DNA of 64,000 bases, from NCBI GenBank assembly GCA_958296385.1, contig OY282494.1, forward strand, positions 1,409,416 to 1,473,415, read 5' to 3'. The position numbers and the translations under genes were made by a program. Source of the DNA: an uncultured Dehalococcoidia bacterium (GTDB taxonomy: Bacteria; Chloroflexota; Dehalococcoidia; Lucifugimonadales; UBA3495). Below, piece after piece: positions 27,882 to 37,901 of this stretch; the stretch's first letter is position 1, and the number at the start of each line of letters is the position of its first letter. Below the pieces are notes generated by a model. The model made no database searches. It saw only the letters and a list, made by a program, of their open reading frames with translations, and was not told the DNA's origin.

Positions 27882-28931
27882 TTAGCCGAGTTCCGCGTAG
27901 GCCCATTCCAGGAGGTTGACGGTTTCGTCCCAGCCGATGCAGGAGTCGGTTATGGAGATGCCGTATTCCAGGGCGGCGGGGTCGTCGCTGAGCTTTTGGG
28001 CGCCGGCGTTGATGTTGCTTTCCAGCATCACGCCGAGCAGGTCGCGGTTGCCGGCGGTGCGCTGGGCGATTACGTCCGCAAAGGCGATGTGCTGGCGGGT
28101 GTGGTCTTTGTTGGAGTTGCCGTGGCTGCAATCGACGACGACGTGGCCGGGGCGGTTGGCCTTGCGGAGGGCGGCCTGCGCGACGGCGATGGAACGGGCG
28201 TCGTAGTTGGTGCCACCGCGCCCGCCGCGCATCACCAGATGGCAGTTGGCGTTGCCTTTGGTTTCAACGATGGACGCCTGGCCGTCGTGGTCGATGCCGA
28301 GGAAAGCCTGGGGGGTGCTGGCGGCGACCAGGGCGTCAACGGCGGTTTGGGGGTCGCCGTCGGTGCCGTTCTTGAAACCGACGGGCATGGAGAGGCCGGA
28401 GGCCATCTGGCGGTGGGTCTGGCTCTCGGTGGTGCGGGCGCCGATGGCGGCCCAGGTGACCAAATCGGAGAGGTACTGCGGCACGATGGGGTCGAGGAAT
28501 TCAGTAGCGGAGTAGAGGCCGGCTTCGGCGATTTCCAGCAGCAGGGTGCGGGCGCGGCGCAGGCCATCCTCAATCTGGTAGGTGTCGTTGAGGTTGGGGT
28601 CGTAGATGAGGCCCTTCCAGCCGACGGTGGTGCGGGGTTTCTCGAAATAGACGCGCATAACGATGAGGAGGCGGTCGCTGAGCTGCTCGGCCAGAGGCTT
28701 GAGGCGTTTGGCGTAATCCAGGGCGGCCGGCTGGTCGTGGATGGAGCAGGGGCCGACGATTACGGCAAAGCGGTCGTCGGCGCCGGAGAGCACGGACTCC
28801 AGCTGGCGGCGTCCCTCGAGGACGGAGGCTTCGGCCGGTGGGGAGAGGGGGATTTGGGCTTCGAGTTCGGAAGGTCGGATGAGGGCGTTGTTGCTCGTCA
28901 CGTTTACGTCCTTAGCGGGTGAACTAACCAT
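27882..28931 (-). CDS. aroG: 3-deoxy-7-phosphoheptulonate (DAHP) synthase, AroG type
   Basis: Condenses phosphoenolpyruvate and erythrose 4-phosphate, the entry step of aromatic amino acid synthesis. The 349 residues match class I-alpha enzymes: FAVIVGPCSIHD with the metal-binding Cys, MRVYFEKPRTTVGWKGL, GARTTESQTHRQMASGL, GNANCHLVMRGG and VVVDCSHGNSNKDH. ATG 28931 has AGGAGG 9 bases upstream. A complete transcription attenuator with a Tyr/Phe-rich leader peptide sits 70-270 bases upstream, so expression should rise when charged tRNA-Tyr or tRNA-Phe falls. That predicts a Tyr- and/or Phe-responsive gene; allosteric specificity cannot be read. Confidence 0.96.
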   Translation of the reverse strand: MVSSPAKDVNVTSNNALIRPSELEAQIPLSPPAEASVLEGRRQLESVLSGADDRFAVIVGPCSIHDQPAALDYAKRLKPLAEQLSDRLLIVMRVYFEKPRTTVGWKGLIYDPNLNDTYQIEDGLRRARTLLLEIAEAGLYSATEFLDPIVPQYLSDLVTWAAIGARTTESQTHRQMASGLSMPVGFKNGTDGDPQTAVDALVAASTPQAFLGIDHDGQASIVETKGNANCHLVMRGGRGGTNYDARSIAVAQAALRKANRPGHVVVDCSHGNSNKDHTRQHIAFADVIAQRTAGNRDLLGVMLESNINAGAQKLSDDPAALEYGISITDSCIGWDETVNLLEWAYAELG

Positions 28932-28999
28932 GGTGTCTATCCTCCTGGTGGCAAGCCGGGTGCAGCGGGCGGGGTGGGGTGGTGCGTTGCGGTGCGGTC

Positions 29000-29035
29000 A
29001 AAAAAAAGACTCCAGCCCGTGTCCGGCTGAAGTCT
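29000..29035 (-). terminator. Attenuator terminator of aroG
   Basis: Minus strand: AGACTTCAGCC (29035-29025), a 7-base loop, then GGCTGGAGTCT (29017-29007) and eight T (29007-29000). The stem is 11 bp with one G-T pair. It ends about 70 bases before the aroG start. Confidence 0.92.
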
Positions 29036-29079
29036 GCGAAATCGGTTTAAACCGGGTTATCGGGCTTCGCACACCGGAC
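29021..29079 (-). promoter_or_regulatory. aroG antiterminator pairing
   Basis: GTCCGG..TGCGAA (29079-29066) is complementary to TTCGCA..CCGGAC (29040-29021), which includes the 5' arm of the terminator stem. Forming it excludes the terminator. A ribosome stalled on the aromatic codons would leave the first strand free; one reaching the leader stop at 29057 would cover it. Confidence 0.8.
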
Positions 29080-29161
29080 TTGCGCCAACCGTACTGCGGT
29101 AAGCGTAAAAGTAAAAGGGCCGATAATAGCCCGGCGAGACCAAGCGGCGTGCGGCACACAT
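29057..29161 (-). CDS. Tyr/Phe-rich leader peptide of aroG
   Basis: A 34-codon frame MCAARRLVSP... with the core YYRPFYFYAY: five Tyr and two Phe codons within ten residues (codons 12-21, 29128-29099). Its stop lies on top of the first antiterminator strand. The upstream -10 box TAACAT ends 10 bases before the ATG, so transcription should begin within about 4 bases of the start codon and the message is probably leaderless. No Trp codons are present. Translation should sense charged tRNA-Tyr and tRNA-Phe. Its role is inferred from composition and the overlapping alternative RNA pairings. Confidence 0.85.
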   Translation of the reverse strand: MCAARRLVSPGYYRPFYFYAYRSTVGASPVCEAR

Positions 29162-29171
29162 AACGCACAAA

Positions 29172-29200
29172 ATGTTACCCCCGCCCAGCGCCATTGTCAA
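29172..29200 (-). promoter_or_regulatory. Promoter of the aroG leader transcript
   Basis: Minus-strand TTGACA (29200-29195), a 17-base spacer, and TAACAT (29177-29172): a near-consensus housekeeping promoter. Expected start near 29165, only a few bases from the leader-peptide ATG at 29161. Confidence 0.8.
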
Positions 29201-31712: not shown

Positions 31713-31732
31713 TGGGTTGGTTTGGGTTGGTT
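31713..31732. repeat. 10-bp x2 tandem duplication at the surface-protein stop
   Basis: tgggttggtt occurs twice without mismatch; the second copy overlaps the first two bases of the stop codon of the giant gene. Confidence 0.9.
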
Positions 31733-34700
31733 AGTATGCGGGGCGGCGGCGCCGGCGGTACATCAGGATGAGGATGATGAGGATGCCGAGGCCCAGCAGC
31801 CCGGCGTAGGCGATGAGGATGAGGCTCATCCCGGAAAGGCCGTCCGAGCTGGACGGGTCCAGGCTCCCGACGGCGGCGCCGGGAGCGCTTTCCGCAGGGG
31901 CGTAGTCCAGGGGTGGCGGGTCATCGCCAACGGCGGCGGCGGTGCAGCACTCGTCGGCCGGGGCATCGCCGGCGGCGGGGTGGCCGGCGGGCGGCGCCGG
32001 GGTGGGCGTGGTGGTGAGCGCGGGGAACGACAACCCGGAACCGGACGCGGAGGCCGCCCCTGCTGACTGGATCGCGGACGATCCCACCGGCACACGGGCG
32101 AACACCCGCGTGGGCATAGTCATCGGCGGTGGCGCCACCGTCGGGGCCGGCGTTGGGGCTGGCGTGGACATCGGCGGGGGCGTCGGTGTAGGCATCGGCG
32201 TGGGCGTCGGCCTCCAGTCGTCATCGTCGTCGTCATCATCATCGTTAACGGTTGGCGTCGTCGTCGCGGTCGGCGTCGTCGTCGCGGTTGGCGTTGGCGT
32301 GTCGGTTGGCGTTGGCGATGGCGTGGGCGTGGGCGTCGCGGTTGGCGGGGCCGCCGGCAAAACCCGAGTGTGCGGCTTGTCACGGTCGTCATCGTCGTCA
32401 TTGTCATCGTCATCGTCGTTGCTATCGTCGTCATCATCATCGATGTCGATCACGATGTCGCTGGGGGCGATGCTGTAGCTGCGGGCCGGGCCGTAGCTGG
32501 CGCCGGCGATGGCGTTGGCGGCGGGGGCGGACAGCGTGACGGTGAAATGCTCGGCGCTTTCGCTGTTGGCGTCGTGGGCTACGGTGAAAACGCAGCTGCT
32601 GGCGGTGTCGGTTACGGTAAAGCTGGCCGTTGCGGTCAGGCTGGCGAAGTCGGATGCGTCGGTTCCGGCCTGGCCGCCGGCGGTGTTGGGGGTGATGCTG
32701 CATTGGACGCTGCCGGCGGCGGCGGGGGCCTTGCTGCCGGCTACGCCGACGGTAAGGGTGCGGGCCGTTGCGTCGCCATCCTCGTTCAGCACAGCGCCGG
32801 CCGCCGGGCTGCTGATGGTGTAAGCGGGGCCGTCGCTATCGTCCGTCGGGGTGTCGTCATCGTTCGTCGGGGCGTCGCTGGCGGCGATGCGGTAGCTGCG
32901 GGCGGGGCCGTAGCTGGCGCCGGCGATGGCGCTGGAACTTGGCGCCGACAGCGTTACGGTGAAATGCTCCGCGCTTTCCGTATCCGTATCATCCGACACG
33001 GTGAATACGCAGGCGCCGGCGGTGTCGCTTGACGCGCCGGATGCGGTAAAGCTGGCGGTTGCGGTCAGGCTGGCGAAGTCGGCTGCGTCGGTTCCGGTTT
33101 GGCCGCCGGCGGTGTTGGGGGTGATGGCGCATTGGACGCTGCCGGCGGCGGCGGGCGCGCTGCTGCCGGTTACGCCGACGGTTAGCGTGCGGGCCGCGGC
33201 GTCGCCGTCCTCATTAAGGGCGGTATCGGCAGCGGGGCTGGTGATGGTGTAGGTGGGGGTGGGGGCGTCGCTGGCGGCGATGCGGTAGTTGCGCGCCGCG
33301 CCGTAGCTGGCCCCGCTGATGGCGTTGGCGGTTGGGGCCGACAGCGTAACCGTGAAATGCTCCGCGCTTTCCGTATCCGTATCAGCGGACACGGTGAATA
33401 CGCAGCTGCCGGCGGTGTCGGTTGCCGCGCCGGATGCGGTAAAGCTGGCCGTTGCGGTCAGGCTGGCGAAGTCGGCTGCGTCGGTTCCGGTTTGGCCGCC
33501 GGCGGTGTTGGCGGTGATGGTGCACAGCACGTTGCCGGCGGCGGCGGGCGCAATGCTGCCGGTTACGCCGACGGTTAGCGTGCGGGCCGCCAGGTTGCCA
33601 TCCTCATCAAGGGCGGTGTTGGCGGCGGGGCTGCTGATGCTGTAAGCGGGGCCGGCGTCGTTGTCCGATGAGTCGTCGTCGTCGTCCGCGGAGCCGTCGC
33701 TGGCGGCGATGCGGTAGCCGCGCGCCGCTCCGTAGGTGGCGCCGGCGATGGCGTTGGCCGTTGGCGCCGACAGCGTTACGGTGAAGTGCTCCGCGCTTTC
33801 CGTAGTGGAGTCATCGGACACGGTGAACACGCAGCTGCCGGTGGTGGTGGTGGTAAAGCTGGCCGTTGCGGTCAGGCTGGCGAAGTCGGATGCGTCGGTT
33901 CCGGCCTGGCCGCCGGCGGCGTTGGCGGTGATGGTGCACTGCACGCTGCCGGCGGCGCGGGGGGCCTTGCTGCCGGTTACGCCGACGGTTAGCGTGCGGG
34001 CCGCTGCGTTGCCGTCCTCGTCAAGGACGGCGCCGGCGGCCGGGCTGGTGATGGTGTAGGTGGGGCCGTCGCTGACGGCGATGCCGAAGTTGCGGGCCGC
34101 TCCGTAGCTGGCGGCGGCGATGGCGTTGGCAGTTGGGGCAGACAGCGTTACGGTGAAATGCTCGGCGCTTTCGTAGTCGGTGTCATCGGACACGGTGAAA
34201 ACGCAGCTGCCGGCGGTGTCGGTTGACGCGCCGGATGCGGTGAAACTGGCCGTTGCGGTCAGGCTGGCGAAGTCGGATGCGTCGGTTCCCGTCTGGCCGC
34301 CGGCGGTGTTGGCGGTGATGGCGCACTGGACGTTGCCGGCGGCCAATGGAGCTACACTGCCGGTTACGCCGACGGTTAGCGTGCGGGCCGCCAGGTTGCC
34401 GTCCTCGTCAAGGGCGGTATCGGCAGCGGGGCTGGTGATGGTGTACGTGGGGCCGTCGCTGATGGCGATGCCGAAGTTGCGCGGTGCGCCGTAGTCGGCG
34501 CCGAGGATGGCGCCGGAACCCGGGGCATCCAGCGTTACGGTGAAGTGCTCGGCGCTTTCGTAGTCGGTGTCGTCGGACACGGTGAATACGCAGCTGCTGG
34601 CGGTGTCGGTTTTGGTAAAGCTGGCGGTGGTGACGAGGCTGTCGAAGTCGTGTTTGTCGGTTCCCGTCCGGCCGCCGGCGGTGTTGGGGGTGATAGTGCA

Positions 34701-37700
34701 GCGCACGTCGCCGCTGCTCCCGGAGGGGGGCTCCCGGTCGCCGGTTACGCCGACGGTTAGCGTGCGGGCCGCCAGGTTGCCGTCCTCGTCCAGCACGGTA
34801 TCGGCGGCCGGGCTGGTGATGGTGTAGGTGGGGCCGTCGCTGGCGGCGATGCTGAAGTTGCGCGCCGGGCCGTAGCTGGCGCCGAAGATGGCGTTGCTGG
34901 CGGGAGCGGACAGCGTTACGGTGAAATGCTCGGCGTTTTCCACGTCGCTGTCGTCGGAAACGGTGAATACGCAGCTGCCGGTGGTGGACGAGCTGTTCGG
35001 GAAGTTGGCGGTTGCGGTCAGGCTGGCGAAGTCGGCTGCGTCGGTTCCCGTCCGGCCGCCGGCGGTGTTGGCGGTTATGGTGCATTGAACTTTGCCGGTA
35101 TCGGAGGGGCCCTCGCTGCCGGTTACGCCGACGGTCAGCGTGCGGGCCGTGGCATCGCCGTCCTCATCCAGCACGGTATCGGCGGCCGGGCTGGTGATGG
35201 TGTAGCGGGGGCCGTCGCTGGGGGCGATGCTGAAATGGCGGGCCGGGCCGTAGCTGGCGCCGGCGATGGTGTTGGCGTTGCTGGTGGGCGCAGACAGCGT
35301 TACGGTGAAGTGTTCGGCGCTTTCCACAGCAGAATCGTCGGCTATGGTGAACACGCAGCTGCCGGCGGTGTCGGTAGTGGTAAAGCGGGCGGTTGCGATG
35401 GGGCTGGCAAAGTCGGAGACGCTGGTTCCACTGCGCCCGCCGCCGGCGTTGGGGGATATGGTGCACAGCACGTCGCCGGCGGCGGCCGGCGTCTTGCTGC
35501 CGGTTATGCCCACGGTCAGCGTGCGCGCCGCCAGGTTGCCGTCCTCATCAATCGCGGTATCAGCGGCCGGGCTGGTGATAGTGTAGGTGAGGCCATCGCT
35601 GAGGGCGATGCTGAAGTTGCGCGCCGGACCGTAGCTGGCGCCGGTGATGCCGTTAGTCGTGGGGGAAACCAGCGAGACCTGGAAATGCTCGGCGCTTTCG
35701 TAGTCGGTGTCGTCGGACACGGTGAACACGCAGTTGGCGGCGGTGTCGGTTGACGCGCCGGATGCGGTAAAGCTGGCGGTGGCGGTCAGGCTGGCAAAGT
35801 CGGCGGCGTCGGTTCCGGTGCGGCCATCGCCGGGACGGGACTTGATGCGGCACAGCACGTCGCCGGCGGCGTCGGGGGCCTTGCTGCCGGTTACGCCGAC
35901 GGTCAGCGTGCGCGCGGCCGCGTTGCCGTCCTCGTCAATCACGGTATCGGCGGCGGGGCTGCTGATGGTGTAGCGCGGGCCGTCGCTGGGGGCGATGCTG
36001 AAGCTGCGGGCCGGGCCGTAGCTGGCGCCCGGGACGGCGCCGCTGCTGGGCGCAGACAGCGTAACGGTGAAATGCTCGGCGCCTTCAACGGTGTCGTCCT
36101 CGCTTACGTTGAATACGCAGATGCCGGCGGTGGCAGTGGTAACAAATCGCTGGGCGTTGGTGAGGCTGACAAAGTCGGCCGCGTCGGTTCCGGCCCGGCC
36201 GCCGGCGGTGTTGGCGGTGACGGTGCACTTGACGCTGCCGGCGGCGGAGGGGCCCTCGCTGCCGGTTATGCCGACGGTCAGCTTGCGGGCCGTCTCGTCC
36301 CCGTCCTCGTTCAGCGCGGTAGCAGCGGCCGGGCTGGTGATGGTGTAGTGGGGGCCGTCGCTGGGGGCGATGCTGAAGTTGCGGGCCGGGCCGTAGCTGG
36401 CCCCGGTGATGGCGGTGCCGCCGGTGATGTCTCTGGAGGGCGCGGACAGGGTGACGGTGAAGTGCTCGGCGTCCTCTATAATGGTGTCGTGCTGGATGAT
36501 GAATATGCAGTTGGCGGCGGTGTCGGTGGCGGAAAAGCTGGCGTTCGCGGTGAGACTGCTGGAAAAGTCGGCGTTGGAGGTTCCGGTTATCCCGCCGGCG
36601 GTGTTGTGCGTGAGAGTGCACCGCACGTGACCGTCGGCGCCCGGCGCCTTGCTGCCGGTTACGGTGACGTAGAGCCAGCGTCCCTGCGGGTTGCTGTCGT
36701 CCTCATTTATCACAGTATCAGCGGCCGGGCTGGTGATGGTGTAGCGCGGGCCGTCGCTGGGGGCGATGCTGAAGTTGCGGGCCGGGCCGTAGCTGGCCCC
36801 GGCGATGGCGGTGCTGCCGTCGATGGCAAGCACGGGCGCGGACAGCGTGATGGTGAAGTGCTCGGCGCCTTCTACAATGGTTTCGTCGGTGATGACAAAC
36901 CGGCAGGTGCTGGCGGTGTCGGTTGACGCGCCGCTGGCGGTAAATTGGGCGTCCGAAAAGTTGAGGATGCCGTCATTGAGACGATGGTCAGCTTCAATGT
37001 CGGATGTGGAGATGCCGGTTCTCCCGCCGGCGGTGTTGGACGTGAGCGTGCACCGCACGGCGCCGGCGTCGGCCGGCGCCTTGCTGCCGGTTACGCCGAC
37101 GGTCAGCGTGCGCGCCGCCTGGTTGCCGTCCTCGTCAATCGCGGTATCAGCGGCCGGGCTGGTGATGGTGTAGCGCGGGCCGTCGCTGGGGGCGATGCTG
37201 AAGTTGCGGGCCGGGCCGTAGGTGGCCCCGGCGATGGCGTTGCCGCCGATGGCAAGCAGGGGCGCGGACAGCGTGATGGTGAAGTGCTCGGCGCCTTCTA
37301 CAATGGTGTCGTGGGCGATGACAAACCGGCAGGTGCTGGCGGTGTCGGTTGACGCGCCGCTGGCGGTAAAGCTGGCGTCATCAAAGTTGAAGTTGCCTTG
37401 AAGGTCGTCGGATGTGGAGATGCCGGTTCTCCCGCCGGCGGTGTTGGACGTGAGAATGCACCGCACGACACCGGCGTCGGCCGGCGCCTTGCTGCCGGTT
37501 ATGCCGACGGTCAGCGTGCGCGCGGCCTGGTTGCCGTCCTCGTCAATCGCGGTACCAGCGGCCGGGCTGGTGATGGTGTAGCGCGGGCCGTCGCTGGCGG
37601 CGAGGCGGTCGTGGGGGCCGGGCGCAGCGTCGTAGGCGGCGCCGGCGGCAGTCTGCGCCTGGGCCTGGGCCGGGGGTGCGCCTCCGGAGAGCAAACCGGC

Positions 37701-37901
37701 AAAGAGGACGACGGCGGCCAGCAGGAACGGGGCGGCCAGCCACGCCAGCCGGGGCAGCCGGATATACCGGCGCAAGCGGGGTATGTCTATGTGATGACGG
37801 TAGGCGGCTATGGGGCGCGCCGTCGCGGGGCGCGTGCGGTCAGTGTCGGCAGTGGCCGGGGCAGCGGAAATAATCGGGGACGCAATAACGCTCCTGTCCA
37901 T
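31731..37901 (-). CDS. Giant surface protein with 13 Calx-beta-like repeats
   Basis: A 2056-residue surface protein. A basic N-terminus and signal anchor (LAWLAAPFLLAAVVLFAGLL, about 52-71) with a possible cleavage after AQA precede 13 repeats of about 125-145 residues (107-1814). Each repeat opens YTITSPAA..(D/N)EDG, contains two conserved Cys and ends ESAEHFTVTLSAP..YGPARNFSI, a Calx-beta-like beta-sandwich probably closed by a disulfide. Long Asp runs and a TP/TA-rich stalk follow. A C-terminal helix (MSLILIAYAGLLGLGILIIL) with an RRRRR tail stops transfer. Adhesion or a surface layer is inferred. ATG 37901 has GGAG 10 bases upstream; two partial copies of the 5' end lie upstream. Confidence 0.88.
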   Translation of the reverse strand: MDRSVIASPIISAAPATADTDRTRPATARPIAAYRHHIDIPRLRRYIRLPRLAWLAAPFLLAAVVLFAGLLSGGAPPAQAQAQTAAGAAYDAAPGPHDRLAASDGPRYTITSPAAGTAIDEDGNQAARTLTVGITGSKAPADAGVVRCILTSNTAGGRTGISTSDDLQGNFNFDDASFTASGASTDTASTCRFVIAHDTIVEGAEHFTITLSAPLLAIGGNAIAGATYGPARNFSIAPSDGPRYTITSPAADTAIDEDGNQAARTLTVGVTGSKAPADAGAVRCTLTSNTAGGRTGISTSDIEADHRLNDGILNFSDAQFTASGASTDTASTCRFVITDETIVEGAEHFTITLSAPVLAIDGSTAIAGASYGPARNFSIAPSDGPRYTITSPAADTVINEDDSNPQGRWLYVTVTGSKAPGADGHVRCTLTHNTAGGITGTSNADFSSSLTANASFSATDTAANCIFIIQHDTIIEDAEHFTVTLSAPSRDITGGTAITGASYGPARNFSIAPSDGPHYTITSPAAATALNEDGDETARKLTVGITGSEGPSAAGSVKCTVTANTAGGRAGTDAADFVSLTNAQRFVTTATAGICVFNVSEDDTVEGAEHFTVTLSAPSSGAVPGASYGPARSFSIAPSDGPRYTISSPAADTVIDEDGNAAARTLTVGVTGSKAPDAAGDVLCRIKSRPGDGRTGTDAADFASLTATASFTASGASTDTAANCVFTVSDDTDYESAEHFQVSLVSPTTNGITGASYGPARNFSIALSDGLTYTITSPAADTAIDEDGNLAARTLTVGITGSKTPAAAGDVLCTISPNAGGGRSGTSVSDFASPIATARFTTTDTAGSCVFTIADDSAVESAEHFTVTLSAPTSNANTIAGASYGPARHFSIAPSDGPRYTITSPAADTVLDEDGDATARTLTVGVTGSEGPSDTGKVQCTITANTAGGRTGTDAADFASLTATANFPNSSSTTGSCVFTVSDDSDVENAEHFTVTLSAPASNAIFGASYGPARNFSIAASDGPTYTITSPAADTVLDEDGNLAARTLTVGVTGDREPPSGSSGDVRCTITPNTAGGRTGTDKHDFDSLVTTASFTKTDTASSCVFTVSDDTDYESAEHFTVTLDAPGSGAILGADYGAPRNFGIAISDGPTYTITSPAADTALDEDGNLAARTLTVGVTGSVAPLAAGNVQCAITANTAGGQTGTDASDFASLTATASFTASGASTDTAGSCVFTVSDDTDYESAEHFTVTLSAPTANAIAAASYGAARNFGIAVSDGPTYTITSPAAGAVLDEDGNAAARTLTVGVTGSKAPRAAGSVQCTITANAAGGQAGTDASDFASLTATASFTTTTTGSCVFTVSDDSTTESAEHFTVTLSAPTANAIAGATYGAARGYRIAASDGSADDDDDSSDNDAGPAYSISSPAANTALDEDGNLAARTLTVGVTGSIAPAAAGNVLCTITANTAGGQTGTDAADFASLTATASFTASGAATDTAGSCVFTVSADTDTESAEHFTVTLSAPTANAISGASYGAARNYRIAASDAPTPTYTITSPAADTALNEDGDAAARTLTVGVTGSSAPAAAGSVQCAITPNTAGGQTGTDAADFASLTATASFTASGASSDTAGACVFTVSDDTDTESAEHFTVTLSAPSSSAIAGASYGPARSYRIAASDAPTNDDDTPTDDSDGPAYTISSPAAGAVLNEDGDATARTLTVGVAGSKAPAAAGSVQCSITPNTAGGQAGTDASDFASLTATASFTVTDTASSCVFTVAHDANSESAEHFTVTLSAPAANAIAGASYGPARSYSIAPSDIVIDIDDDDDDSNDDDDDNDDDDDRDKPHTRVLPAAPPTATPTPTPSPTPTDTPTPTATTTPTATTTPTVNDDDDDDDDDWRPTPTPMPTPTPPPMSTPAPTPAPTVAPPPMTMPTRVFARVPVGSSAIQSAGAASASGSGLSFPALTTTPTPAPPAGHPAAGDAPADECCTAAAVGDDPPPLDYAPAESAPGAAVGSLDPSSSDGLSGMSLILIAYAGLLGLGILIILILMYRRRRRPAY
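32150..32460. repeat. Low-complexity Asp-run and Thr-Pro coding tracts
   Basis: Trinucleotide-like gtc/atc runs (32220-32250, 32385-32455) encode Asp runs of the giant protein, and ggcgttggcgt-like hexamers between them encode its TP/TA stalk. Such tracts are prone to slippage and could vary stalk length. Confidence 0.85.
32460..37583. repeat. 13 tandem ~390-bp repeats inside the surface-protein gene
   Basis: Thirteen consecutive in-frame units with similar DNA as well as protein sequence, on average 394 bp. Units in the C-terminal half (for example those around 33.2-34.5 kb) are most alike, suggesting recent duplication or gene conversion there; the first three from the N-terminus are more diverged and longer. 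Confidence 0.9.

Follow-up and report, generated by a model that had tools for sequence, protein, structure and literature searches.

The aroG gene, which encodes a type I (AroFGH-type) DAHP synthase, lies on the minus strand of the window, the 64,000-nucleotide stretch of DNA analysed here (Table 1). It is the single match to PF00793 in the 3.30-Mb single-contig genome. The solved structures nearest to its product are Tyr- and Phe-sensitive DAHP synthases, and its closest named relative is an 85% identical DAHP synthase from the Chloroflexi MAG SB0662_bin_27. The gene trpA (PF00290; 29808-30626, minus) shares the strand of aroG and lies upstream of it, separated from the aroG locus by a small DUF2730-like coiled-coil ORF. 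Another gene of the window (31731-37901, minus) encodes a surface-type protein of 2056 residues. It is built from numerous repeats that are almost identical and look Calx-beta-like by eye, has Asp and Pro/Thr-rich stretches, and carries a membrane helix at its C terminus.

Ahead of aroG, a promoter is followed by a 34-codon reading frame with the translation MCAARRLVSPGYYRPFYFYAYRSTVGASPVCEAR, whose ATG lies 10 nt past the -10 hexamer and ~2-4 nt past the expected transcript start. Inside these 34 codons is the aromatic stretch GYYRPFYFYAYR. The window has 897 ORFs between 10 and 60 codons long, and the leader is the sole one with at least 5 Phe/Tyr per 10 residues, itself reaching at least 7 within 10; in Markov-shuffled windows (14,034 ORFs), one ORF reached 5 per 10 and none reached 6. 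The leader region ends in an intrinsic terminator with a stem of 11 pairs (29035-29025/29017-29007, −18.4 kcal/mol) and a T run that reaches 29000. An earlier note on this DNA had described a TTGACA-17-TAACAT promoter with an ATG just past the expected start, the 34-codon frame carrying YYRPFYFYAY, and an 11-bp terminator with a T run; inspection of the sequence and a promoter scan placed each of these on the minus strand as listed in Table 1.

Table 1 Features of the aroG locus, in window positions.
Feature	Position	Strand	Basis or remark
aroG, type I (AroFGH-type) DAHP synthase	27882..28931	minus	PF00793, TIGR00034
aroG Shine-Dalgarno site AGGAGG	28941..28946	minus	sequence; present across most of the genus
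-35 hexamer TTGACA	29195..29200	minus	sequence and scan; invariant in 12/12 genus loci
-10 hexamer TAACAT (genus form TAnnAT)	29172..29177	minus	sequence and genus comparison; 17-nt spacer to -35
Leader ORF, 34 codons and TAA	29057..29161	minus	ATG 29161-29159, TAA 29059-29057; no Shine-Dalgarno site
Control codons 12-21, YYRPFYFYAY	29099..29128	minus	retained in 12/12 genus loci barring a few substitutions
1:2 hairpin (anti-antiterminator), CGCT.ACCG / CGGT.GGCG	29083..29105	minus	predicted folds; strand 1 and first part of strand 2
Strand 2, antiterminator 5′ side (CGGTTGG, GTCCGG, TGCGAA)	29066..29091	minus	duplex with strand 3; covariation over 23 genera
Strand 3, TTCGCAGACTTCAGCCGGAC	29021..29040	minus	common to antiterminator and terminator
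Intrinsic terminator 3:4, AGACTTCAGCC-GGACACG-GGCTGGAGTCT then T run	29000..29035	minus	stem covaries between genera

Conservation of the leader in the genus and order

For comparison we used the sequence upstream of DAHP synthase at 87 loci, drawn from the genus, family and order to which this genome belongs. Within the genus, the promoter, 34-codon leader, aromatic core and terminator are all present in 12 of 12 orthologous loci (aroG 82-100% identity), and the ATG lies 7-10 nt after the -10 hexamer in every one. The core of the peptide is GY(Y/C)RPF(Y/W)(F/L)YAYR, with the control-codon substitutions Y13C (two loci), Y17W (one) and F18L (two). Codons 2-10 and 23-28 are freely variable, and third bases within the core change synonymously. 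In a thirteenth genome of the genus, G007, the only copy is divergent (50%) and lacks the leader; G004 has no match.

Across the order, an aromatic leader and terminator were found at about 49 of the 87 loci, 44 of them scored automatically and 5 by eye (L060, L068, L071, L073, L078). Outside the genus the leaders are unlike in sequence but remain aromatic, as in RYAYYYYYF, YGYYYYFF, WFFGYYWNF and YGYWYFF; 34 leaders of the order together contain 145 Tyr, 80 Phe and 14 Trp residues. The element is not universal, since no aromatic leader was detected at roughly 36 of the 87 loci. Nearly all of these also lack such a terminator, which suggests that the parts are gained and lost together. At two loci the promoter and terminator are kept but the aromatic codons, read by eye, are diluted: L026, with GYCCYIF, and L020, with two Trp and two Tyr. 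Because leader and terminator come and go together in the order, a hairpin kept after the aromatic codons have gone, the pattern that the earlier note set against its own reading, is at most an exception.

Alternative pairings, covariation and folding

The predicted 1:2, 2:3 and 3:4 pairings of the aroG leader overlap one another. The 1:2 hairpin starts inside the control codons and is also predicted by folding in the other loci of the genus, and the duplex of strands 2 and 3 has an energy of −21.8 kcal/mol in this genome. GTCCGG (29079-29074) can pair with CCGGAC (29026-29021) and TGCGAA (29071-29066) with TTCGCA (29040-29035), as the earlier note had proposed, but the TGCGAA:TTCGCA half is peculiar to this genome; the part of the antiterminator conserved in the genus is CCGG...GAAG against CTTC..CCGG.

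Covariation was assessed by a swap test on 44 loci from 23 genera, in which the best 2:3 duplex and the terminator arms were compared with pairings exchanged between genera. Native 2:3 duplexes averaged −24.65 against a null of −18.53 ± 0.74, and native 3:4 stems −18.07 against −11.64 ± 0.64; for both, the native pairing was better in 23 of 23 genera and none of 20,000 permutations was as good. True and swapped antiterminator pairs differed by a mean of −6.4 kcal/mol over the 23/23 genera (p = 2e-7). The helices switch as whole units, for example GCCGGT:ACCGGC, GTCGGC:GCCGAC, TGCCGA:TCGGCA and AAGGGC:GCCCTTT. The swap test gave no signal (p 0.40) for a control segment preceding the control codons. 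The 1:2 hairpin, predicted in most loci and starting within or just past the control codons, showed weak covariation (p about 0.03), and that of an additional pairing upstream of the terminator arm was not significant in the swap test (p 0.07). The earlier note had suggested comparing related genomes for conserved Tyr/Phe runs and compensatory pairing changes; the runs are kept in 12/12 genus loci and the covariation extends over 23/23 genera.

With a ribosome set on each leader codon in turn, we modelled how the RNA downstream of it folds, with or without strand 4. When strand 4 was omitted, predicted antiterminator pairing of strand 3 averaged 0.76 with the ribosome at the best Phe/Tyr position versus 0.20 at the stop codon, and was higher at the former in 44 of 44 loci; for this genome the values were 0.68 at the control codons and 0.22 at the stop. 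The model agrees in direction with the proposal of the earlier note that stalling at codons 12-21 would free the antiterminator strand and arrival at the stop would mask it. An untranslated leader gave an antiterminator pairing of 0.47 in the model, so that no strong termination is predicted in that state. With strand 4 present at equilibrium, the terminator prevailed in the genus; in this genome it dominated wherever the ribosome was placed (about 0.99 for the control codons), and a plain equilibrium fold with the ribosome masked did not separate the two states in the genus; they separated once strand 4 was omitted. Since the terminator wins at equilibrium when strand 4 is present, the switch would have to be kinetic, set by the order of synthesis, which is the usual mode of operation of leader-peptide attenuators.

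Start of the leader and alternative explanations

At the 34 loci with a TTGA[CT]-TAnnnT promoter, the leader start codon lies 6-10 nt after the -10 element (median 9). A Shine-Dalgarno-like 4-mer precedes 5 of 34 leaders versus 43 of 44 aroG starts, and no Shine-Dalgarno site before the leader was seen in the genus alignment. Our best estimate from the sequence is a leader 5′ UTR of about 0-4 nt. This genome has 36 cases of a promoter with an ATG 5-12 nt further on, versus 6 of the reversed pattern, one of the 36 being ahead of a purF-like gene (L206), and leaderless mRNAs appear to be common in it. Leaderless genes were reported at about 5% in some Chloroflexi genomes, and the same study places the TANNNT box of leaderless genes about 12 bp before the start (PMC3160421). 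Three loci from another family in another class of the phylum (L188, L189, L190) carry the aromatic leaders FFYFWFSYF or FWGYFWFSYF before DAHP synthase, behind TTGAC-type promoters; as their ATG lies 16-18 nt past the -10 element, these leaders are not leaderless.

The conserved parts, covarying antiterminator, promoter spacing and scarcity of Shine-Dalgarno sites lead us to read the aroG leader as a ribosome-mediated transcription attenuator that would sense charged tRNA-Tyr and tRNA-Phe (probability about 0.9), with a leader peptide that is near-leaderless as judged by its sequence. The earlier note had proposed such control, and the aromatic codons, covariation, promoter-ATG distance and missing Shine-Dalgarno site strongly support it. 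The leader, its control codons, the promoter spacing, the lack of a Shine-Dalgarno site and the covarying 2:3 and 3:4 pairings are all established by sequence and comparison; we infer the exact start site, translation of the leader, stalling, termination and the amino-acid response. The transcript would begin about 6-8 nt past the -10 hexamer, and a ribosome would initiate on the ATG, no more than ~4 nt from the 5′ end. When Tyr or Phe is scarce, the ribosome would halt in YYRPFYFYAY and cover strand 1, allowing strand 2 to pair with strand 3; the terminator would then come too late to form and aroG would be transcribed. Antitermination would depend on strand 2 capturing strand 3 before strand 4 emerges. 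When both amino acids are abundant, the ribosome would reach the stop codon and cover or pass strand 2, leaving strand 3 free for strand 4, and transcription would end at the T run.

The same attenuator could have a longer 5′ end and not be leaderless, through an upstream promoter or through initiation without a Shine-Dalgarno site behind a real 5′ UTR. We consider this unlikely, while granting it a small share of the probability: the 5′ end was placed from sequence, the 10-nt spacing here is a few nucleotides above that of a strictly leaderless gene (TANNNT ~12 bp before the start, PMC3160421), and the leaders of L188-L190 start further from their -10 elements. However, TTGACA and TA..AT are held 6-10 nt from the ATG across many genera while the sequence upstream is unconserved, and upstream in-frame starts fall within the promoter. 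It is also conceivable that the terminator is constitutive or controlled by a protein and that the small ORF is incidental, its aromatic run having no sensing role. The terminator is indeed by far the stablest structure at equilibrium, but retention of the run over many genera in otherwise dissimilar peptides, its occurrence in 1 of 897 window ORFs, the covarying antiterminator and, in the model, the placing of control codons such that stalling releases strand 2 make this explanation very improbable.

A T-box or metabolite riboswitch in place of a leader peptide can be given almost no weight, although trpE of the same genome has a T-box-like leader. The aroG leader region is only ~160 nt long and coding for the most part, and an Rfam search at a permissive threshold over the aroG region and the loci of its relatives returned no family at the leader; a T-box identity was rejected on this ground. 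The T-box-like leader upstream of trpE (L229:209-446; G000:C1 about 855208-855445) scores 60.4 bits (E 4e-11) against RF00230, short of the 93 required by the gathering threshold of that family. Together with the putative attenuator at aroG, this would therefore place two different RNA switches in one pathway.

Relation to known attenuators

Attenuation of this type at a DAHP synthase gene is already known from Corynebacterium. In C. glutamicum, the leader peptide aroR, with Phe-Tyr-Phe, precedes the aroF (DAHP synthase) operon (PMC11802643; PMC4046766); stalling raises transcription under Phe limitation and Tyr is without effect (PMC11802643). RNA-seq revealed the aroF leader along with other attenuator leaders, in a set in which half of the small ORFs are leaderless (PMC4046766). 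The aroR/aroF attenuator (Neshat et al. 2014) is described in both PMC11802643 and PMC4046766. In the aroG leader, too, aromatic codons follow one another ahead of a DAHP synthase gene, and stalling is likewise proposed to enhance transcription. It differs in belonging to another phylum and in its run, FYF in aroR against YYRPFYFYAY or YYYYYF here, and Tyr codons predominate in the present leaders whereas Phe, not Tyr, is reported to act in C. glutamicum. Attenuator leaders of C. glutamicum include leaderless ones, and a near-leaderless start is suggested here by the sequence. In the study by Neshat and colleagues, all tested C. glutamicum attenuators were reportedly leaderless.

With enterobacterial pheL-pheA and trpL, the aroG leader shares alternative 2:3 and 3:4 pairings, control codons and an intrinsic terminator, together with a 1:2 pairing that is predicted here, but the enterobacterial leaders are initiated at Shine-Dalgarno sites and control other genes. 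The DAHP synthase genes of E. coli are not known to be under leader-peptide attenuation and are regulated by TyrR/TrpR instead. The Sinorhizobium trpL is leaderless. That attenuator (PMC7298713) and the leaderless polycysteine attenuators of mycobacteria, said to act at translation (Canestrari et al. 2020, as cited in PMC13236596), resemble the arrangement proposed here in that a leaderless short ORF senses an amino acid, but they sense other amino acids and control other genes. In 2005, a comparative study of actinobacteria did not turn up any RNA element for Phe or Tyr (PMC1262725). The earlier note knew of no such control of DAHP synthase with a leaderless sensor peptide in this kind of genome. 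For Chloroflexota this stands, in that we found no description of such an element in the open-access literature; as a general claim of novelty it does not, given aroR/aroF and the leaderless attenuators of corynebacteria and mycobacteria. The new points are the phylum, conservation across the order and leaders rich in Tyr.

A second candidate lies elsewhere in this genome (L212; G000:C1:1097228-1097267, minus), where a TTGACA-17-TATAGT promoter is followed by a leaderless-type Cys-rich ORF, MHSNCKLTRFHAPACSCTCTPKRGAG, and a terminator with T7, upstream of a nitrite/sulfite reductase-like gene (PF01077, PF03460). From its sequence it looks like a cysteine attenuator. On the strength of this ORF and of the aromatic DAHP synthase leaders in another class, we tentatively suggest, at somewhat less than even odds, that these Chloroflexota make general regulatory use of leaderless sensor peptides, which may be old in the phylum or may have arisen independently of the actinobacterial ones.

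The aroG leader element is one that Rfam misses. It would extend amino-acid-sensing attenuation of the first enzyme of the shikimate pathway to an order of uncultured Chloroflexota, and its near-leaderless leaders would offer a naturally varied set for asking how a ribosome initiating at the extreme 5′ end stays in step with the polymerase.
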